From assembly GCA_016932215.1 (NCBI GenBank), contig JAFGDH010000001.1, forward strand, positions 1 through 49,588: DNA of 49,588 bases, given 5' to 3'. The DNA comes from Candidatus Aenigmatarchaeota archaeon. Lineage in GTDB: Archaea; Aenigmatarchaeota; Aenigmatarchaeia; QMZP01; QMZT01. This document shows positions 4,679-38,741 of the stretch, one piece after another. The position numbers were made by a program, and so were the translations under genes. The notes beneath the pieces are model-generated. The model saw only the letters and a program-made list of their open reading frames with translations. It was not told the DNA's origin and did no database searches. Each line of letters starts with the position of its first letter. The first letter of the stretch is position 1.

Positions 4679-5698
4679 ATGTTACTAAAGATTTTGTTCA
4701 ACAGCATAACGATAAGCCTCCCGAAGAACATAATACAGTTTCTTCTCGGGGTCATTCTGTTCTGGTTTGTTATCGGTGTTCCTGATACATACATCACACT
4801 CATTGCCATGGCCGGGTTCATAATAACATACTCCTGCGTTTACCTTTTCAACGACATTTTTGATTACAAGGAAGATATGGGCGACAAGGAAAAGATGAAG
4901 TGGAAGCCCATAGCCAGCGGCCACCTTCACATCGAGCACGCAAAGGGCCTGGCGTTAGCATTCGCGTTCGTGGGCATGGTAATTTCATTTTTCGTCAATG
5001 AATGGTTTTTTGCCATCATGGTGATCATGCTTTTCCTGAACATGCTCCATTCATCCCCCCTGACCAAATTCAAGAAGGGTCTTTATAAAACTACGATAAA
5101 CATGACAGCGATAGAATTCCTGAAATATTCATGCGGTTGGTTCGCGCTTACCACAAACATATCCAGATTCCCTTTCTGGCTCATACTGGCATTCTCGGTA
5201 GTTTACACGACGAGTTACATAATATACAAATTCAAATTCAAGGGCAAGGTCATAAAGGAAAACAAAAAACTGTTCTGGGGGCTTGGTATACTCGGCGTGG
5301 TATCATATCTAGTATCACTGATCCAGTATGGATTTCCCCTGACACTGATATTCCTTGTCCTGGCACCGCTGGTGATATTGATCATATTCAAATACATGAA
5401 CGTCGAGGTTCACAGGATAAGCAACATGATAATGATAGAGTACCTACTTCTTCCCCTGGTTATAATATGCTTCGTTATCCTTACCGTTCCGATGGTAGGG
5501 AATGCCAACGACCAGATAGCGGACAGCCTGACAAACATATCGGACAGGATAACCGATACGATAACCGAAAACATTCCGGATACGGTGATGAGACCAATAG
5601 AAAACCTTTCGGTAGAACTGGAAAGATACGAGACACTGGAGGATATCATCAGCGAGGTAAACAAGACGATATCAAATATAACCGATCCGATCATATAA
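4679..5698 (+). CDS. UbiA-like membrane prenyltransferase with hydrophilic C-terminal tail
   Basis: This integral membrane protein of 339 residues has about eight hydrophobic segments. The aspartate-rich NDIFDYKED motif at residues 58-66 and the nearby KWKPIASG match the first Mg/polyprenyl-diphosphate site of the UbiA family, whose members prenylate quinone heads, sugars or glycerol lipids. The second Asp-rich motif expected near the cytoplasmic end of TM5-6 is not obvious, so activity is less certain than fold. Residues about 274-339 form a polar, amphipathic tail with four N-X-S/T sequons (N286, N309, N328, N333). The start at 4679 is preceded by GGTG at 4670-4673; a GTG at 4673 is an alternative. 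Its end overlaps the convergent PHP gene by 8 bases. Confidence 0.7.
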   Translation: MLLKILFNSITISLPKNIIQFLLGVILFWFVIGVPDTYITLIAMAGFIITYSCVYLFNDIFDYKEDMGDKEKMKWKPIASGHLHIEHAKGLALAFAFVGMVISFFVNEWFFAIMVIMLFLNMLHSSPLTKFKKGLYKTTINMTAIEFLKYSCGWFALTTNISRFPFWLILAFSVVYTTSYIIYKFKFKGKVIKENKKLFWGLGILGVVSYLVSLIQYGFPLTLIFLVLAPLVILIIFKYMNVEVHRISNMIMIEYLLLPLVIICFVILTVPMVGNANDQIADSLTNISDRITDTITENIPDTVMRPIENLSVELERYETLEDIISEVNKTISNITDPII

Positions 5699-30333: not shown

Positions 30334-33300
30334 TTATCCCCATATTCTTATCTCCAGCTCCGAGGGTCCCCAGAGGGATGGTATCTGCGAAATATAATCG
30401 GCGGAAAAGCTCACCTCTGGGGTTATCTCCAGATCTATCGGGTTCGTCTGGTTAACCGCGTCATATGGTTCACCAAATGTCCCGTCGCCGTACGTGTTAG
30501 GGTTGGTGTCATTTATGAAATTCAGCATGTCCATGAGCCTCATGAAAGCGTCATCGACACTGTCGTTCTGGGGGTCGAACACATCCGAAGGGAACGGGCC
30601 CACCTGTACCTGGCTGGAACCGTCAGGAACATTGTCACCGTTGGAATCGTAATATATTGTTACGGTTGAACCCTTGAGTTTCTGGAAAACCCCGCTGTAT
30701 CCCTGGAGACCCACGCCGGTTATTCCCAATGTGTAAATCACGCGCGAATCCGGGGAGCCCCCCGTTCCGTTTACTGGCCCGAGTCCTGTTCCCAGGCGGA
30801 CCGAATTGTTCCCGCCGGGCTTCAGCAGGTTGACGGGTATGTTGATTACGTACGGATCACCTATGTCCCCGTAATCGCTCGAAAAATTCCCGAGCCAGTA
30901 AACGTTGGTCCAGTTCTGGTTCGGTGTGTTTGACGAATTGATCCACAGCCGGTCTGTCCAGTAATATGATGAGTACGACGTTATCTTGGAATCCAGTACC
31001 CTGGTGTTGTTCTGTATGAAGAACCATCCCTCCTTTGTCCCTGTAAGGTTATCGGTTATCGTTGAATTGCCGGTCACATCCCCAAGCCTCGGGGATTCGA
31101 ATTTAAGGGTTATTTCCCCGTAGCTCAGAGGTTCTGATATAGGTTTGTATTCATAGGAAATGTAAGAATCCGGATAGAGCGTATTGTTGGTTTTGACTTC
31201 CCCTGTTATGACGACTGCCTGCGCCTTGAACGCGATCTCCAGGATATCCCTCGCTATCTGCCTGTATATCTCAACAAGCTCGTCCGAATCAGAGCTTACG
31301 TAAAAATTAGAGCAGTTGTCGCAGCAGGCGATGTCACGAAGCGTGTCGGTATCCGCTCCCGACCCGAAGGCGACGGAATATATGCTTATATTGTATTTGT
31401 CATGGGCCTCGCATGCCTTGTCTATTGCCTCCTGAGACGGGGTGGGATCCCCATCCTGGCAGTTGTTGCAGTCTCCTATCCTTGTGTTTGCGTGGCCATC
31501 GCTCATCACGAGCATGGCCTTGAAGCGGTTGTAAGGGACATAGTCAATGCTTTCGGTGGTGGTGATACTTACGTTACGGAATGACCACGTGTTACCGCTT
31601 CCCGTCCTCCTGCATCCACCGTCTATTCCCGTTCCAGGATCCTCCATAGATCCTGCGGTAAATGTCAGGTTATTCTCCCCGTTGTTTATCCAGAACGCCG
31701 GAAGATCGAACGTTACGTTCTGCCACACGTTGGTACCGCTCCATTCTTGGTGCCTTACCCTTCCTATGAAATTATCGTTCAGGTATATGCAGTTGTAATA
31801 ATACGGATCCACGTCCTTGGCTTCGAACACGAGCCTTCCTGCCTTCAGGTTGGATTTATTTATGGACATATCCATCGTAACGTTTATAATCTCGCTTGTC
31901 GGTGGGGAGTAATAAGATGAATTGGTGATTCCAATTGCTATATTGTCGAACATGAAATAGCCCCATTCCGAGCTCTCGGTACCTAGTATTTTTCCTCCTA
32001 TATCAAGATAGTACATTCCCTGCCCTTCTATCCATTGGGTCAGGTTCTGGTAGAAATTACCGGAAAAGTCATCATCAGGATTGTTTCTCGTGTCTATCTC
32101 TTCGTCACCGTCTGATCCCCAGTCGCCGGAATCCATATCACTTCCAAGGTAATGGTATCCGGAAGTCGGGGAATACCATCTTCCCTTTATCCATACCTGG
32201 TCGGAGTCCTCGAACGGTTCGTCATTACCGTCCCATTCGTAATCCATCGAAAAATATAACCAGTCGCCTCCGGCTATGTAAGAATAAATCTCATCGGTTA
32301 TGTTAACCTCTATACCATACGCCCCCGAACAGTCGTAGTTGGAGCACCTGTTTCTGGCCGGCGATCCTGTTACCATGTCAAGCACCAGTTCACCCCCCGT
32401 AACAGGTGCGTAATCCACGTTATCGTCCCATCCATAAGGTCCGCTGCCATCCTGATTATCCCAGTCCCACCCATCGTCGCCTGATCCCGGGCCGAACGTA
32501 TTGAAGGTCCAGTTAAGCCCGCTGGTAAAATCTATCGGATACGGCAGGTCGGATGTCAGTTCCCAGATGTCCGCATAATCCTTGAAGACAAACCCGCCCG
32601 GGTAATTGATTGTCGTTTCAATGTTGTCTTTGAACTCTTTTGTGTTTTTTGTGAGGTTCTGGAGCTCCCATAATGTTATCCTCACGTCCTTGAAGTTCCA
32701 GTCGTCATGGCTCCCGCCGATCTCGTTGCAGTCGGCTGTTGTCCCGGAAGTCACATTTACGATATTTATGCCCTGGTTGAGCCATTCCTGCCTCACGTCA
32801 TAGACGCAGTCGTGATAACCGTCAGAACTGTCCTCCGCCGGGTAGCACATCCTTCCCAGGTATTTCCCGTTCAGGTAAACACAGTTTTTGTAATATTTGT
32901 TGTTCGCGTCAAGATCCCTTCCGAACACTGTTAATCTCGCCTTGACGAATCTCTGCGGATCGAACGTTATGTTAACGGCAACGTTTACGGATCTAGGTTT
33001 CCCGGCATAATCGTCGCCTATATCGTACCATGTGGTGTTCACTTCAGATGTCATGTTAGTCGCGTATAACGTCTGGGTTTCCATTGCAAGCTTCGTGGCG
33101 GATTCAATCCCGCATGATATGCATGTCCATCCGCACCACTCGTTTGCGTAGTCATCTATTCTGTCCCTTAAGGATTCGTTATCGCCGGTAAGGTCCCTGA
33201 AGGAGCATACGGGACTCGCCCTCTTCCCGTAACCTATCATACCAACCCTGTTGCCCGTCGTGTTGAGAATCGCATCCAGGAAAGCCTTGTTGGAGTCCTG

Positions 33301-34635
33301 GACGATCTTGTATCTCCTTTCGTGGCACGGACTCCATGGATCACATATTCCCGGTTCGCTGCACGAGATGTCGACATCACATGAATCCATGCTGCCAGTC
33401 CTGTCGGTTATGAGAACAACGTCCGCCCTCTGACCCAGTCCGAAAAGATAGCTCAGGTTGGCCGTTCCCATCCTTATCGGAACGGTCCTGTTGCTTATGT
33501 AATTCAGGTGTTCTATTCCGGTCCCCTTGAATATGGAGGAATTTATGAAGGAATTGTTTATTATCACCATCTTCTCGCTGGTGTTCGAGTCGCTGTACAA
33601 AGTAACGTTTCCGATGGTGAAATAAACCGGATAGTTGCTCTTGTAATGAAGATACGCCGAAATATTGCTGAGAGTTCCGGGCACGTGGAAAGAGGAATAC
33701 AGGTTTATTATTCCCTCTATCCCCGGAAACCAGTATTTATCGGTGCTCGTGTTCCCGGTGTAAAGGAATCCGGTAAGCTCTGATGTCGTGTATGTAATCT
33801 TCATGTACCCTCCGCCTATCGATGAATTCTCAACGGACGTGAAATTGATCTCTATGGTATTGTTACCTCCGCCGAAAAGGGAACATATTCCGGGATTCAA
33901 TGCGGAGGAGCAGACCGTCCACTTGTCCGCGGAGAAATTGCCCTTTGTTTTGTTGTACGTGCCTGCATAATTGTCGTTGATATAAAATGAAAAGTTATTC
34001 CCGATATTCATTTCCATGTAGACAAGTGAGACATTGGCGTCTGCCGGAAGTTCCGTCAGTCTCGAGATGTTACCCTCCCCCACGTAACCCCCGAAGTAAA
34101 GGAAGTCCGACGTTGTCTTCTTCGCCTTCGAAAGATAGACCTTAGCCACGTAACCGTCCACCGGCTTCGTTTTTTCGTATCCGGAAACAAGGGTTGTGAG
34201 CCTTGCGAGGAAATTATTAACGGGCGGTGCTGAAGAGTTGTATATCCTCTCCCCACCAAACATTATTTCATATTCGTGACCCGTTTCATTAAGCAGTGCG
34301 TCAAGAATGTCTTTGGTTATGTTGCCAGCCTCAGAGATGTTCCCTGATGTCCACAGCGATCCGATCACATCGAGTATCGACCTTCCCATGTCCCCCTCCT
34401 CCAGTACCCCGGTTGCGAGATAGTTCTGGATAACCGGCAAAAATTCTACTGATGACATGGGAGTCTGCTCGAAAATGTATACCATGTCCTTCCCGGTGTA
34501 ATAATATCTCTGGTATCTGAGATCAGGCGAGGAATATGTGTGCAGCAGGGAAACCATGAAGAAACCCACGAGAACGAGTATCGATACTGCGAACACGGCA
34601 TCCATTGAAAGCAGGAAACCCCTTGAACCCCTCAT
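30334..34635 (-). CDS. Giant secreted von Willebrand factor A protein with split VWA domain and duplicated modules
   Basis: A 1433-residue surface protein. The N-terminus (RGFLLSMDAVFAVSILVLVG) has a basic tip and one hydrophobic helix, resembling prepilin-type signals. The VWA domain starts at about 404 with the MIDAS motif DRTGSM at 411-416 and continues through EYGIGYGKR-like strands to about 520. Its second half (MLVMSDGHANTRIGD, ISIYSVAFGSGADTDTL) does not appear until 1040-1135. Inside the gap are two similar modules (559-657 and 923-1029) with CVYLNGKYLGR / CIYLNDNFIGR cores and W-N-F/R endings. A third, looser copy is at 205-281. Sequons are abundant and cysteines numerous. It heads an operon with the thioredoxin-fold protein, VanZ-like protein and ABCE1. 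Confidence 0.8.
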   Translation of the reverse strand: MRGSRGFLLSMDAVFAVSILVLVGFFMVSLLHTYSSPDLRYQRYYYTGKDMVYIFEQTPMSSVEFLPVIQNYLATGVLEEGDMGRSILDVIGSLWTSGNISEAGNITKDILDALLNETGHEYEIMFGGERIYNSSAPPVNNFLARLTTLVSGYEKTKPVDGYVAKVYLSKAKKTTSDFLYFGGYVGEGNISRLTELPADANVSLVYMEMNIGNNFSFYINDNYAGTYNKTKGNFSADKWTVCSSALNPGICSLFGGGNNTIEINFTSVENSSIGGGYMKITYTTSELTGFLYTGNTSTDKYWFPGIEGIINLYSSFHVPGTLSNISAYLHYKSNYPVYFTIGNVTLYSDSNTSEKMVIINNSFINSSIFKGTGIEHLNYISNRTVPIRMGTANLSYLFGLGQRADVVLITDRTGSMDSCDVDISCSEPGICDPWSPCHERRYKIVQDSNKAFLDAILNTTGNRVGMIGYGKRASPVCSFRDLTGDNESLRDRIDDYANEWCGWTCISCGIESATKLAMETQTLYATNMTSEVNTTWYDIGDDYAGKPRSVNVAVNITFDPQRFVKARLTVFGRDLDANNKYYKNCVYLNGKYLGRMCYPAEDSSDGYHDCVYDVRQEWLNQGINIVNVTSGTTADCNEIGGSHDDWNFKDVRITLWELQNLTKNTKEFKDNIETTINYPGGFVFKDYADIWELTSDLPYPIDFTSGLNWTFNTFGPGSGDDGWDWDNQDGSGPYGWDDNVDYAPVTGGELVLDMVTGSPARNRCSNYDCSGAYGIEVNITDEIYSYIAGGDWLYFSMDYEWDGNDEPFEDSDQVWIKGRWYSPTSGYHYLGSDMDSGDWGSDGDEEIDTRNNPDDDFSGNFYQNLTQWIEGQGMYYLDIGGKILGTESSEWGYFMFDNIAIGITNSSYYSPPTSEIINVTMDMSINKSNLKAGRLVFEAKDVDPYYYNCIYLNDNFIGRVRHQEWSGTNVWQNVTFDLPAFWINNGENNLTFTAGSMEDPGTGIDGGCRRTGSGNTWSFRNVSITTTESIDYVPYNRFKAMLVMSDGHANTRIGDCNNCQDGDPTPSQEAIDKACEAHDKYNISIYSVAFGSGADTDTLRDIACCDNCSNFYVSSDSDELVEIYRQIARDILEIAFKAQAVVITGEVKTNNTLYPDSYISYEYKPISEPLSYGEITLKFESPRLGDVTGNSTITDNLTGTKEGWFFIQNNTRVLDSKITSYSSYYWTDRLWINSSNTPNQNWTNVYWLGNFSSDYGDIGDPYVINIPVNLLKPGGNNSVRLGTGLGPVNGTGGSPDSRVIYTLGITGVGLQGYSGVFQKLKGSTVTIYYDSNGDNVPDGSSQVQVGPFPSDVFDPQNDSVDDAFMRLMDMLNFINDTNPNTYGDGTFGEPYDAVNQTNPIDLEITPEVSFSADYISQIPSLWGPSELEIRIWG

Positions 34636-34733: not shown

Positions 34734-35336
34734 ATGGACTTCAGGAAATTTATAAAATCGACTTTCGGAAAGGACGTCTTTAAAATCAGCGAGGACGACA
34801 TAATCAAGGAAAGGGTCCGGGTAGAGAAGGAAGTGGAAAACATCTCGGACGACATAAAGGGCATACAGGAAAAGATACAGAAGCTGATGATAGAGTCGAA
34901 AGGCCAGCCTTCAACCCTGAAAATGCTTAACGTGCAGAAGATCAAGGCACTCAGGCTTGAATCCAGAACCAAGCAGATGGAAGCGAACCACTACATACAG
35001 CAGATGCAGGTCCTTCTTCTCGTCGAGGCGATGAAACAGAGGGAAAAGGAAGACAAGGAATCAAAGATAACCGACGAGATTCTGGATTCGGATATGGACA
35101 AGCTCAGCGCGGTTCTTCTGGATACGGACGTGAAGGAAGCCCTCAAAGAGGGAAGAATCGATCTGGTTAAAGACAAGCTGGGAAGGGTTTTCGGGAAGGA
35201 GCAGCTTTTGGTCGACGACGAGTCCCAGGAACTAATGAGCGCGATAGACGATCTTGAGAAGGTCGACGAGCAGACTGCGATCAGGATGGCCGGGCAAAAG
35301 GCGAAAGAACTTGCCGACGAGAAGGTCGACGAATAA
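34734..35336 (+). CDS. ESCRT-III/CdvB-like coiled-coil protein (candidate)
   Basis: A 200-residue, almost entirely helical protein without a membrane segment. Residues 22-55 form one long helix and 62-108 a second, joined by a short turn with Gly and Pro (SKGQPST). This is the basic helix 1-helix 2 hairpin of the Snf7/ESCRT-III core. The N-terminal half is basic to mixed, and the C-terminal part is strongly acidic with shorter helices (120-155, 163-198), again like ESCRT-III. No clear MIT-interacting motif is seen at the C-terminus. GGTGAT precedes the ATG. The adjacent Vps4-like ATPase at 35865 strengthens the idea. Generic coiled-coil proteins can look the same, so this is moderate. Confidence 0.5.
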   Translation: MDFRKFIKSTFGKDVFKISEDDIIKERVRVEKEVENISDDIKGIQEKIQKLMIESKGQPSTLKMLNVQKIKALRLESRTKQMEANHYIQQMQVLLLVEAMKQREKEDKESKITDEILDSDMDKLSAVLLDTDVKEALKEGRIDLVKDKLGRVFGKEQLLVDDESQELMSAIDDLEKVDEQTAIRMAGQKAKELADEKVDE

Positions 35337-35388
35337 TGCCTTCCCAATTCCATTATTTTTGAATTTTTCAGAAATTCCAGCACTGTCG

Positions 35389-35808
35389 CTATAACCTGAA
35401 ATAATCCCTGATCATTTTCTTGAAGCTTTCATGCCCCGTATCGAAATCGTCTGACATGAATTCTTCCGGGCTGACCCATTTGTATTCCGTGAGGTTCTCC
35501 TCTTTGTCCGTGTTTTTGCCCAGGTCCACTTCCCCTGAAACATGCCTGCAGAGAAACGTCGTAAGAACAACCTGGTCGCCGCCGTTTTCCCTGAAAAAAT
35601 ACCATGTCCCTACTGGTTTTATGACTTCCACGTTCATATCAGTCTCTTCCCTGAATTCCCTAATGAGGCACGACACGGGATCGCTGCCGTATTTTATCCT
35701 CCCACCCGGAAGATCCCAGACGGAAAAACCGGACAATTTTTGCTTAACGATGAGGAATTTCCCGTTCCTCATGAGGATTCCCTTGACCGCGGCCTGCACA
35801 TTTGGCAT
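35389..35808 (-). CDS. NUDIX hydrolase
   Basis: A 139-residue NUDIX-fold protein. The Nudix box region GGRIKYGSDPVSCLIREFREET retains the metal-binding REFREE core, but the first Glu of the consensus (GX5E) is Ser, so catalysis could be altered. Flanking strands (AVKGILMRNGKFLIVKQ, VWDLPGGR) and the C-terminal EYKWVSPEEFM are typical. Such enzymes clear nucleoside diphosphate derivatives. It lies in the gap between the ESCRT-III-like and Vps4-like genes on the opposite strand, which breaks the forward run but is probably coincidental. Confidence 0.88.
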   Translation of the reverse strand: MPNVQAAVKGILMRNGKFLIVKQKLSGFSVWDLPGGRIKYGSDPVSCLIREFREETDMNVEVIKPVGTWYFFRENGGDQVVLTTFLCRHVSGEVDLGKNTDKEENLTEYKWVSPEEFMSDDFDTGHESFKKMIRDYFRL

Positions 35809-35864
35809 TTTATTGAATTAGAGAACAGTTTTAAAATCTTTAATCAAAATATAAACAGGGTATT

Positions 35865-36989
35865 ATGGGAGAAATACGGGAATCCGTCCTTAAGCAGCAG
35901 CTCCAGAAGGAGATGGACGAGGCAAAGAAGCTGGAATCCAGGGGCAAGGGAAAGCAGGCAGCAGTCCATTACCAGAACGCGGCCAACATCTACAGAAGGC
36001 TCGCTTACATAGCCCCGAGGGATTACGCCGAGACCTTTTTTTCATCCGCTTCACAGTACGAGAACCTCGGAAACACACTGAAAACGACCACACCTTACAC
36101 CAGAGCCGAATCCACCGAGATGATCGAAACAATGATAATATCGGAGCGGCCCAAGATCAAATGGGAAGAGATAGGCGGCCTGGAGGAAGTCAAGTCGACC
36201 ATAAAGGAGGCGATCGTTCTCCCATTCATCAACAACAAGCCGGATTTTGTGGAGGCCCCGAAGGCGATACTTCTGTACGGTCCGCCGGGTACCGGCAAGA
36301 CCCTTCTTGCCAAGGCGGCAACCAATACCCTCGAAGCGACGTTCTTCGAGGCAAGGACTTCAACACTGCTCTCTAAATATTTCGGGGAGAGCAGCAAGAT
36401 AATATCTATGCTTTTCTCCAAAGCCAAGGAGAAGCAGCCATCCGTCATATTCATGGACGAATTCGACAGCATAATGGTAAGCAGGGACAGAGACCTGAAC
36501 GAAAGCACACGAAGGGTGGTTGGGCAGCTTCTTCAGGAAATCGAGGGATTCGCTTCCAAGGTTGAAGACAAAATAATACTTATTGCGGCAACAAACAAAC
36601 CGTGGGACCTTGATGACGCCATGATATCGAGGTTCCAGCGGAAGATATACGTTCCTCTTCCGGATCAGGAAGCAAGAAAGGCGATAATAGAGATACATAT
36701 CAAGGGAGTAACACTCGAGGGCATAACGATAAACTCCCTTTCAGAAAGAACGGAAGGTTTTTCCGGCAGGGATATAGCCAATTTGTGCAGGGAGGCCGTT
36801 ATGACAATGATAAGGGAGAAGAACCCGAAACTGGAAGAACTGACCTCCGGCCAGATAGAGAAGTACACGATGAGCTATCGTCCTCTGAAGGAAAAGGATT
36901 TCAAAAAGGCCTTCGAAAAAATAAGACCGAGTGTCGAACCTGATTCCATAAAGAAGTATTCTGAATGGGGAAAACAAATGGGAATGTAA
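35865..36989 (+). CDS. Vps4/CdvC-like AAA ATPase
   Basis: A 374-residue single-domain AAA ATPase. The N-terminal 75 residues form helices in a MIT/TPR-like pattern (AKKLESRGKGKQAAVHYQNAANIYRRLAY), as in Vps4 and CdvC. Walker A is GPPGTGKT at 139-146, Walker B VIFMDEFD near 194-201, sensor 1 IAATN, and the Arg finger in SRFQRK (R256). The pore-loop 1 (LLSKYFGES) and the segment KIYVPLPDQEAR strongly resemble Vps4 (KRIYIPLPE). The C-terminal EVLTPSD-like end includes a long helix finishing KKYSEWGKQ. Vps4 disassembles ESCRT-III polymers in division and budding. The next gene starts three bases later, so it is in one operon with the TPR protein. Confidence 0.8.
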   Translation: MGEIRESVLKQQLQKEMDEAKKLESRGKGKQAAVHYQNAANIYRRLAYIAPRDYAETFFSSASQYENLGNTLKTTTPYTRAESTEMIETMIISERPKIKWEEIGGLEEVKSTIKEAIVLPFINNKPDFVEAPKAILLYGPPGTGKTLLAKAATNTLEATFFEARTSTLLSKYFGESSKIISMLFSKAKEKQPSVIFMDEFDSIMVSRDRDLNESTRRVVGQLLQEIEGFASKVEDKIILIAATNKPWDLDDAMISRFQRKIYVPLPDQEARKAIIEIHIKGVTLEGITINSLSERTEGFSGRDIANLCREAVMTMIREKNPKLEELTSGQIEKYTMSYRPLKEKDFKKAFEKIRPSVEPDSIKKYSEWGKQMGM

Positions 36990-36992
36990 ACC

Positions 36993-38741
36993 ATGAACAT
37001 TTTCGATGTGATGAAAGAGGAGAAGAAATTCTACAACAAAGAAAAGCTCCAGCACAATCTGGACGATCTTCTGGAAAAGATAAAAAAATCCAGAAGGGAT
37101 GAAAAATTCGAAAAAACCGCGCTGCTCTTCCGAGAAGCAGGGAACGTTGCTCACCTTTTGGGTGACTCACGTGCCTCCGAATTCTACATGAGTTCTGCCC
37201 AGGAAAACCTGAAGGCAAAAAACATGTACAATGCCGCGTGGGCCTACAGGAACGCGGCACTCGTTTCATTCGAGAACGGTGATTATGGCAATACGATTTC
37301 GTTCTCCCAGAAATCAGCTGAATTATTCGAAAAGTCTCATACACAGTACGGGCTTGAGTGGTGCTTCAACCTCATGGGAGAGGCACTGGAAAAAACCGGA
37401 AAGAATTCCGAGGCAATAAAATACTACAAAAAATCCCTTGACATACAGAAGGATGAGGAAATCGAGGAAAGGGTCAGCCAGCTGATGAAAAAAACACCGG
37501 AAATTTCGGTAGATCATAATTCCGATAAAGATTCTGTAAAGGAAAACGGAAATGCCGAATTCAGGCTGGAAGTCAGGAATCTTTCAAACGGCACAATAAA
37601 GGAAATAAAGGTGATGGATTCCGGTTCTAAGATGATAGATTCCTTAGGTAATATTAAACCAAATGAGATACACGTCTTCAAAAAATCAGTAAGAGCGGGC
37701 AAGAACGGAGTTTCATCCCCCTTCAGCCGGATAGAGTGGGAAACATCCGACGGAGATAAAACAGAAAGGGAGATAGAACCGATCGAAATTAAGATTAAAC
37801 CAAATGTCGGAATTAACGCTTATTTTCGCGAGAAACCCAGTGTCGGGAAGCAGTCATTTTTCGTGGTTTTCGTAAGGAACGATTCGGAAAAGGAAATTAC
37901 AAACGTATGCCTTCATATGGATTTTCCGGTAGAGATCAGGGTGAAACCCGTTACCGGGTATGTCCTTGAAAAAATTCAGCCTGGCGAGGAGAAGGGATTC
38001 GTTTTCAAGGTCCTTCCCACCGCCCTGGAGTCGGTCATGCTGAAACCCTCAGTGACTTATGAACACTGCAGAAGGAATTTCGAGGAGACGATGGAACCAT
38101 TCTTCATGAAGGACACGCTGGAACTACCGGAAGACAAGACCATTTCAAGGGAACCTTCCAGGATACTGGACAATAGGATGATCGAAAAAATGAATGAAGC
38201 CCGCGAGGAAAAGAGATTCATCGTTTCAAGGCTGGAACCATTCCAGATCAGCGAGATAGATTTCATAGAATTCCAGAAGGAGATGGCCTCGGTAAACACC
38301 GGATTTTCCCTGAAAAACACCAAAATAGAGGAGACGTTCTCCCTGATAAAGGAGGAACTGAAGGACCTTTATCTCGTTTCGGAAAGGAGGAACGATGAAT
38401 CATGCCTGTTGCTTTATTCATGCAAGACGAGAGGAGAAGGGGAGACCTATCTTCTGAAGATCGTCATAAAGGAAGAAAGGGGCATAGTATTCGTCGTGTC
38501 CAGATTGTATTCTGACAAGGAGGACGGGCTGGACGATCTGCTCACTAAAATATCCAGGGTGCTCGAGCACACGATAACCGCTATGACCTTCGCTACTGAG
38601 GTACAGAATATTGAGGTAAACGAGACAATAAACATAATAGATTCCGTGGTCCAGCGCTCGAAAATAGGCGGTGACGAAGATAAAACAGAGAATAAAAAAA
38701 TAAAATTAAAGGATTCAGTGGTACAGAAGACTGATCTGTAA
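36993..38741 (+). CDS. TPR/SNAP-like protein with beta-sandwich middle and repeated DSVVQ tail
   Basis: A 582-residue protein of unrecognised family. Residues 33-170 are tetratricopeptide-like helices (FREAGNVAHLLGDSRASEFY, AAWAYRNAALVSFENGDYG, MGEALEKTGKNSEAIKYY). Two beta-sandwich-like stretches (about 185-270 and 272-365) follow, resembling CARDB or adaptin-ear folds (FRLEVRNLSNGTIKEI, FFVVFVRNDSEKEITNV). Residues about 400-545 are an alpha/beta region. The tail carries DSVVQRS at 550-556 and DSVVQKT at 574-580. It starts three bases after the Vps4-like gene, so it is almost certainly coexpressed and may be its adaptor; that is inference. No membrane segment is present. Confidence 0.65.
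   Translation: MNIFDVMKEEKKFYNKEKLQHNLDDLLEKIKKSRRDEKFEKTALLFREAGNVAHLLGDSRASEFYMSSAQENLKAKNMYNAAWAYRNAALVSFENGDYGNTISFSQKSAELFEKSHTQYGLEWCFNLMGEALEKTGKNSEAIKYYKKSLDIQKDEEIEERVSQLMKKTPEISVDHNSDKDSVKENGNAEFRLEVRNLSNGTIKEIKVMDSGSKMIDSLGNIKPNEIHVFKKSVRAGKNGVSSPFSRIEWETSDGDKTEREIEPIEIKIKPNVGINAYFREKPSVGKQSFFVVFVRNDSEKEITNVCLHMDFPVEIRVKPVTGYVLEKIQPGEEKGFVFKVLPTALESVMLKPSVTYEHCRRNFEETMEPFFMKDTLELPEDKTISREPSRILDNRMIEKMNEAREEKRFIVSRLEPFQISEIDFIEFQKEMASVNTGFSLKNTKIEETFSLIKEELKDLYLVSERRNDESCLLLYSCKTRGEGETYLLKIVIKEERGIVFVVSRLYSDKEDGLDDLLTKISRVLEHTITAMTFATEVQNIEVNETINIIDSVVQRSKIGGDEDKTENKKIKLKDSVVQKTDL

Follow-up and report, generated by a model that had tools for sequence, protein, structure and literature searches.

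Three neighbouring genes in a stretch of DNA from a Candidatus Aenigmatarchaeota archaeon (contig JAFGDH010000001.1 of assembly GCA_016932215.1, positions 1 to 49,588; this whole stretch is hereafter the window) probably make up a membrane-remodelling system of the ESCRT-III/Vps4 type (ESCRT, endosomal sorting complex required for transport) belonging to one order of Aenigmatarchaeota, which are DPANN archaea. The source genome comprises 1.14 Mb in 43 contigs, the window being contig C18. Gene 1 (34734..35336, forward strand) encodes a protein of 200 residues that we describe as ESCRT-III-like from its family, its predicted model and its homology to Thermococcus proteins. Gene 2 (35865..36989, forward strand) encodes an AAA ATPase of 374 residues, Vps4-like by Pfam, NCBIfam and tree, and gene 3 (36993..38741, forward strand), three bases downstream, encodes a putative adaptor of 582 residues, so called from its predicted model. 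All three are open reading frames (ORFs) with an ATG start and lie where a preliminary description of this DNA had placed them. The analysis draws on homology, domains, predicted folds, co-occurrence and gene order.

A 2021 review (PMC10117752) describes DPANN archaea as being without ESCRT machinery proteins, and a 2022 paper (PMC8970359) places Cdv proteins in three of the four archaeal superphyla, by implication not in DPANN. Our own search, with most subscription journals outside its reach, found no report of an ESCRT system in DPANN. The host group is new to us for a system of this kind, and a conserved ESCRT-like module with an appendage-like adaptor would here sit in an archaeal group said to have no ESCRT machinery.

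Conservation and gene order

The three genes were sought in 61 genomes, namely the source genome (G000) and 60 relatives, 41 of which make up the window's order. Gene 1 was found in 27 of them, gene 2 in 25 (E up to 1e-85) and gene 3 in 13 (E up to 1e-10; a profile search gave 14, the extra one weak and partial), and every genome that holds any of the three belongs to this one order. Extending the search for gene 1 to 156 genomes of the phylum returned the same 27 and none outside the order, and a scan of public contigs gave a sole match, a partial relative of 53 residues with 75% identity at a contig end in a Candidatus Aenigmatarchaeota metagenome-assembled genome. Viral contigs held no relatives of genes 1 or 2, and plasmids held no relative of gene 3 apart from one match to its tetratricopeptide repeats (TPRs) at E 0.1. 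Since the genes are kept as proteins in 27, 25 and 13 of the 61 genomes they are real genes, and chance ORFs are ruled out.

Genes 1 and 2 tend to occur together. With fragments set aside, 23 genomes of the order have both, four have gene 1 only, two have gene 2 only and 12 have neither (Fisher p 1.6e-5); counting gene 2 fragments at contig ends (G001, G004) these numbers become 25, 2, 2 and 12 (p 9e-7), and the two genes are together in 25 of the 29 genomes of the order with either. On the latter count they lie on the same strand and at most 2 kb apart in 15 of the 25, while contig ends prevent a judgement of distance in two (G004, G006). Some features of this distribution weigh on the other side: the Fisher values ignore shared ancestry, the two genes are far from each other in eight of the 25 genomes having both, and 12 of the 41 genomes of the order do without either. 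In one genome (G017; locus L049, contig C4) gene 1 and the ATPase gene are separated by about 285 kb on a single contig, which indicates that the pair can be parted without loss of either gene. A second genome (G020, rated 72% complete; contig C1, 742 kb) has genes 1 and 3, and the search at E up to 1e-85 gave no Vps4-like ATPase in it.

Gene 3 follows gene 2 on the same strand in seven of its 13 genomes, the gap being 1.1 kb in G009 and below 0.2 kb in the other six, and it does so even where gene 1 sits elsewhere (G005, G008). Gene 2 is present in 12 of the 13, the contig-end fragment of G004 included. The preliminary description had looked to the same genes in related archaea as a check on its grouping, and there they do co-occur and are often adjacent, genes 1 and 2 being close in 15 of 25 genomes and gene 3 coming after gene 2 in seven of 13. 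It might still be argued that genes 1 and 2 are a pair, with gene 3 only lying downstream and acting on its own as a scaffold or in signalling. Such independence would suit three observations: the 11 f4-family genomes with genes 1 and 2 yielded no gene 3, G003 from the window's own family yielded none either, and five genomes (G010, G012, G014, G016, G018) have it at a distance from gene 2. It fits less well with the adjacency to gene 2 and the near-constant presence of gene 2 just described, or with the appendage-like domains reported in archaeal ESCRT loci (PMC10936438), and on balance we regard a separate role for gene 3 as unlikely.

The Vps4-like ATPase and the ESCRT-III-like protein

Judged by its sequence, gene 2 is a Vps4-like AAA ATPase. 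Pfam finds AAA (138.4 bits), AAA_lid_3 and, at 36822..36983 on the forward strand, Vps4_C (32.9 bits against a cut-off of 21.3). In the alignment of 24 of the 25 ATPases (the truncated one of G033 was left out) every member matches Vps4_C at E up to 1 and carries the patterns of Walker A (variants allowed), Walker B, the aromatic pore loop and sensor 1; the KIYVPLPD motif and the pore loop to which the preliminary description drew attention are both read in the window's copy, the latter as KYFGES. Of 14 control genomes, two gave Vps4_C, namely Methanocaldococcus jannaschii and Sulfolobus acidocaldarius. CdvC is the NCBIfam model that scores best, with 245.1 bits over residues 8-371, narrowly ahead of CDC48 (237.6) and PAN (222.3). 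A maximum-likelihood tree was made of ten distinct Cdc48 domains (D1/D2), the 24 gene 2 members and seven single-AAA ATPases encoded on plasmids of Thermococcus, haloarchaea and Chlorohelix, the Cdc48 of the source genome being included twice; it split the Cdc48 domains from all others at 100/100. The earlier call of a Vps4-like ATPase is sustained by the Vps4_C match, the narrow lead of CdvC and this unrooted tree. A grouping with Cdc48 or proteasomal ATPases had been named as what would speak against it: gene 2 stands apart from the former in the tree. Within the source genome, gene 2 finds further AAA matches (E up to 1e-10) only in a Cdc48-like ORF of 775 residues, in both of its domains (G000:C27:70384-72000).

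Several observations temper this assignment. Vps4_C is not exclusive to gene 2: across the 61 genomes it passes its cut-off 33 times, of which 24 fall at gene 2 and nine elsewhere, mostly in ORFs of Cdc48 size or longer (eight of the nine in ORFs of at least 735 residues). The gene 2 products of G018 and G022 fall below the cut-off, and only one of six plasmid ATPases scanned, that of Thermococcus, exceeds it. This Thermococcus ATPase itself scores higher with the CDC48 model than with CdvC, and given also how near CDC48 and PAN come to CdvC for gene 2, the NCBIfam models alone are not decisive. The tree, drawn with a midpoint root, holds neither PAN nor katanin nor canonical Vps4. Lastly, the N-terminal helical region (35865..36089, forward strand) may be MIT-like or TPR-like. 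In hhalign its residues 20-60 match the Sulfolobales CdvC MIT domain in register (P 5e-4; reversed control 0.26), and a control with the TPR part of gene 3 does nearly as well (8e-4). Against PDB profiles it finds 4lcb (E 0.16) and 2v6y (E 0.18), ranked below designed proteins; no Pfam MIT is among the 15 families listed for it, and Pfam MIT also touches five of 12 gene 3 orthologues (best E 0.0039). N-termini were compared for 21 of the 24 aligned ATPases.

The link from gene 1 to ESCRT-III runs through a plasmid locus of Thermococcus peptonophilus (L090) with a Vps4-like ATPase, a kinase, a phosphatase, a Snf7-like protein and two further small proteins, which in our reading fits what Makarova et al. 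(2024, PMC10936438) describe as the 'Main' clade of archaeal ESCRT systems, present in Thermococcales and others. Like the window, L090 has a Vps4-like ATPase with Vps4_C over the cut-off (35.8 bits), and two small homologues of gene 1 lie upstream of that ATPase with the kinase gene between; L090 differs in having, besides these, the kinase, the phosphatase and proteins of 607 and 172 residues. The gene 1 family was aligned from 25 of its 27 genomes (G004 and G009, with fragments, were left out), and its hidden Markov model (HMM) matches the two small L090 proteins over their full length with 28.6 and 19.4 bits. Among 3,015 sequences that had been shuffled or reversed the top score was 10.1 bits, and among 554 ORFs, a set that includes the candidates as well as 21 copies of gene 1, the best other ORF reached 7.5. 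Comparison of the gene 1 family with a profile of the Thermococcus locus by hhalign gave 95.3% over the full length (reversed control 1.2%); alignment A6 draws on 11 of the 25 gene 1 rows and excludes the Snf7-like Tpep_9882. In the opposite direction, a profile of four rows (three Thermococcus proteins and one from Chlorohelix) in a six-frame search of the 61 genomes gave 12 hits at E < 0.001; each is a gene 1 copy, and they come from 12 of the 27 genomes with the gene, the best hit elsewhere being at 0.026.

ESCRT-III proteins have a long hairpin of helices a1 and a2, then shorter helices and a tail helix at the C-terminus, and the layout of gene 1 agrees with this. Its model has a short N-terminal helix (residues 3-11), a confident hairpin with arms of 35 and 47 residues (20-54 and 60-106; predicted local distance difference test score, pLDDT, about 90), short middle helices that are poorly predicted (pLDDT <50) and two confident C-terminal helices (162-175 and 179-195). 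The family is basic in its N-terminal half and acidic in its C-terminal half, with mean net charges of +5.7 and -12.6, which is also in line with the ESCRT-III layout. Foldseek on the model gave nothing at E up to 0.001. In VIA, ESCRT-III or Vipp1 account for eight of the 50 matches listed; Snf7, CHMP1B and CHMP2A/3 have Z 7.4-8.0, and other hairpins do equally well (best 8.4). As neither search parts ESCRT-III from other helical hairpins, we have not rested the ESCRT-III case on structure searches.

These two structure searches belong to a longer set of results on gene 1 that pull away from an ESCRT-III identity. Pfam Snf7 is not among the best 25 of 49 families for the 25 full-length members, hhalign against yeast Snf7 and fly Shrub gives 0.1%, and a strict form of MIM1, the MIT-interacting motif of ESCRT-III, taken from its consensus, occurs in none of the 25. 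In 15 of the 27 genomes with gene 1 the reverse profile did not hit it at E up to 1, and in two of these 15, G017 and G034, it matched another place instead (0.08 and 0.06). In the forward direction the gene 1 HMM did not lift Tpep_9882, or the haloarchaeal and Chlorohelix candidates, above noise. What leads on towards Snf7 is two weak steps, from Tpep_5503 to Tpep_9882 (BLASTP 2e-5 in a set of 16 sequences) and from Tpep_9882 to Pfam Snf7 (20.5 bits, below the cut-off of 27.3). Because the family HMM misses the Snf7-like Thermococcus protein and hhalign against Snf7 and Shrub is so low, the tie to canonical Snf7 is an indirect one. Profiles of gene 1 also gave no ESCRT-III match in the PDB, and PF03357 run over the source genome found two weak places, both below the cut-off and both away from gene 1. 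It should be considered that S. acidocaldarius likewise stays under the Snf7 cut-off with the same tool, and that none of 11 candidate proteins scanned from Thermococcus, haloarchaeal and Chlorohelix Vps4-like loci passes it, so the Snf7 criterion is too strict for archaea. The preliminary description had called gene 1 ESCRT-III-like; homology to proteins of the Thermococcus Vps4 locus supports that designation at the level of sequence, and the part that did not materialise is a Snf7 profile match.

A looser core of the interaction motif, L-x-x-[ATV]-[IL]-x-x-[LV], is present in all 25 aligned gene 1 members, the pattern having been derived from the same alignment. An amphipathic N-terminal membrane helix was considered for gene 1 and set aside, which again does not help the ESCRT-III case: the mean moment of 0.39 is reached by 21.5% of 554 background N-termini and by 38% of shuffles.

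The putative adaptor

The preliminary description gave gene 3 TPRs and a beta-sandwich. The TPRs stand, and the sandwich part is refined by the predicted model to two immunoglobulin (Ig)-like domains and a separate b-a-bbbb-a domain (mean pLDDT 80, predicted template modelling score 0.38, the tail mostly unstructured). Residues 16-167 (37038..37493, this and the following features all on the forward strand) form a predicted TPR superhelix that resembles alpha-SNAP. The first Ig-like domain follows at residues 171-269 (37503..37799), and the second, at residues 272-366 (37806..38090), would be the first half of an appendage-like unit. A linker of about 50 residues connects it to the b-a-bbbb-a domain at residues ~421-532 (38253..38588), which is similar to the appendage platform.

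For the TPR part, Pfam SNAP (PF14938) scores 26.4 bits, narrowly over its cut-off of 25, and the generic repeat model TPR_12 scores higher at 41.4; eight of the 12 aligned gene 3 orthologues match Pfam SNAP at E up to 10 (the alignment covers 12 of 13 genomes, that of G008 being in fragments). In VIA, LGN comes first with Z 19.3, and alpha-SNAP and Sec17, at Z 16.8-17.6, are among the best TPR matches. With the whole chain, Foldseek puts appendages of COPI and AP2 on top at E 3e-9 to 7e-7, including a COPI chain (3e-9), beta2-adaptin (1.1e-8) and alpha-adaptin; the TM-scores of these matches are low (0.1-0.4) and their root-mean-square deviation (rmsd) is about 14. The gamma-COP appendage, TRAPPII and a complement complex are also among the first 18, with transglutaminases afterwards. 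VIA aligns appendages over 186-207 residues at Z 11-12 and rmsd 13-15. We take the high rmsd to reflect the correct domains in a different mutual orientation in the model, and on this prediction the C-terminal half of gene 3 resembles an appendage, with an Ig-like sandwich and then a platform domain. The domain make-up seen by model, Foldseek and VIA is adaptor-like, in keeping with the role first proposed for the protein. The tail of all 12 aligned orthologues carries the motif DS[VI]VQ[RK] twice, one copy closing the last predicted helix and the other in the disordered tail (38640..38732, with starts at 38640 and 38712). The corresponding DNA pattern has 13 matches in 11 of the 41 genomes, all at gene 3 positions, and the backwards pattern has none.

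Among the closest known systems are Meth_adaptin and Halo_adaptin, in which ESCRT genes adjoin adaptin-appendage-like proteins that are Ig-like and, in Meth_adaptin, also TBP-like (PMC10936438). The window shares the placing of ESCRT genes beside such a protein; it differs in having both appendage halves after an alpha-SNAP-like TPR superhelix in one chain. Asgard relatives with TPR repeats have been published as well, so a system of this sort is already known, and what would be new to us, going by the model, is the fusion of alpha-SNAP-like TPRs to an appendage-like unit in a single chain. By sequence, gene 3 has no firm similarity to any of 13 proteins of the Thermococcus, haloarchaeal and Chlorohelix loci: nothing was firm against the three L090 proteins, the best match being that of the second Ig-like domain to the kinase at 9.6% probability, and no similarity was seen with the seven haloarchaeal ones. 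Five neighbours in the window scanned with Pfam had no match to GOLD, SPFH, ProX or CetZ, for which the wider genome was not searched.

Comparison with eukaryotic NSF/alpha-SNAP and with AP2 and COPI appendages shows the same two likenesses, the TPR part to the alpha-SNAP/Sec17 fold and the C-terminal part to appendages. The difference is that here they would be one fused protein, whose only tie in sequence is the Pfam SNAP match and whose TPR part is matched as well or better by other TPR proteins such as LGN. Beside a Vps4-type ATPase, such a fusion would unite in a single archaeal protein two folds familiar from eukaryotic trafficking. If true, a SNAP-like loader acting on a Vps4-type ATPase would join the logics of NSF/SNAP and ESCRT in one archaeal operon.

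Possible function and neighbouring genes

In the ESCRT-III/Vps4-type system we favour, polymerisation, membrane binding, ATP-driven disassembly, the adaptor role and the cellular function are all inferred. The gene 1 protein would be a divergent ESCRT-III-like subunit that polymerises on the cell membrane. The ATPase would grip its acidic C-terminal tail and extract subunits from the polymer, and the gene 3 adaptor could bring cargo or partner proteins to the polymer or to the ATPase. Vesicle formation, membrane repair or surface-protein sorting is the likely job, with cell division left to FtsZ. FtsZ or tubulin-family proteins are present in 59 of the 61 genomes and in 26 of the 27 with gene 1, and the source genome has two; division thus has another machine, and a role for the three genes in it is unlikely. 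Our preference for vesicle formation and sorting follows the argument that complex ESCRT systems found alongside FtsZ serve vesicle formation and protein sorting (PMC10936438), and FtsZ-based division has been described for Euryarchaeota and DPANN (a review, PMC7617429). The three-protein set would also offer a compact system for reconstitution.

One candidate client is encoded next to gene 1. The gene at 30334..34635 on the reverse strand is divergent from gene 1 and encodes a VWA protein of 1433 residues whose N-terminus is hydrophobic and pilin-like. In 15 of the 27 genomes, some with the ATPase elsewhere, a relative neighbours gene 1, and this protein is a possible client of the ESCRT-like system. 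We also entertain, tentatively, a fuller version in which this DPANN order runs true ESCRT-III/Vps4 scission with a single-chain adaptor that joins alpha-SNAP-like TPRs to an adaptin/COPI-like part, and in which the VWA protein may be sorted or shed, perhaps at sites of host contact.

The same neighbour, diverging from gene 1 as a surface-type protein in those 15 genomes, would also serve an explanation without any ESCRT-III polymer, in which an AAA unfoldase with a dedicated coiled-coil substrate and a TPR co-factor acts in protein quality control or draws a surface protein out of the membrane. The Cdc48 models nearly equal CdvC for gene 2, and direct Snf7 evidence for gene 1 is lacking, both as that explanation would have it. 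It has more difficulty with the full-length homology of gene 1 to proteins of a Thermococcus locus that contains a Vps4-like ATPase and a Snf7-like protein, with gene 1 as the sole reverse-profile hit (E < 0.001) in 12 of 27 genomes, and with Vps4_C above its cut-off in gene 2. We judge it quite unlikely, and retain the ESCRT-III/Vps4 system as the better account.

A Cdv-type division machine, in which genes 1 and 2 would take the parts of CdvB and CdvC where the cell divides, by themselves or together with FtsZ, is very improbable. The window does share with the Thermoproteota Cdv system (CdvA, CdvB, CdvC) an ESCRT-III-like and Vps4-like pair and CdvC as the best NCBIfam model, and some archaea have both FtsZ and ESCRT, FtsZ-encoding Thaumarchaea being said to divide by ESCRT (PMC10936438). 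It differs in that FtsZ-family proteins are present, that the model of gene 1 has helices only and no winged helix, and that gene 2 stays far below the curated cut-off of the CdvC equivalog (NF041006; 245.1 of 650 bits). Furthermore, of the order's 41 genomes 14 gave no match to gene 1, some of these 14 being incomplete. The cell-division sense carried by the Cdv label of the preliminary description was not borne out, and division was rejected as the leading explanation on the presence of FtsZ/tubulin-family proteins.

Between genes 1 and 2 the window has a NUDIX hydrolase gene (35389..35808, reverse strand; Pfam NUDIX 68.1 bits against a cut-off of 21.1). Its position on the opposite strand had been reported correctly, but the arrangement is not a general one, for tblastn found no relative between the two genes in any of the 14 other genomes that have them at most 2 kb apart (about 0.3 kb of the gap in G009 was uncovered). 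Found in this place in the window only, it is probably an incidental insertion, and the NUDIX gene probably stands outside the conserved module.

A comparable arrangement occurs on a bacterial plasmid, that of Candidatus Chlorohelix allophototropha (Chloroflexota; L094, NZ_CP128401.1, 1-2455), which encodes, in order, two small hypothetical proteins, a Vps4-like ATPase and a Ser/Thr kinase. The ATPase has no Vps4_C at E up to 0.001 and groups with the archaeal ones on a long branch, and the first small protein is similar to the one encoded at 4907-5503 of the T. peptonophilus locus (BLASTP 5.7e-7 in the set of 16 sequences).

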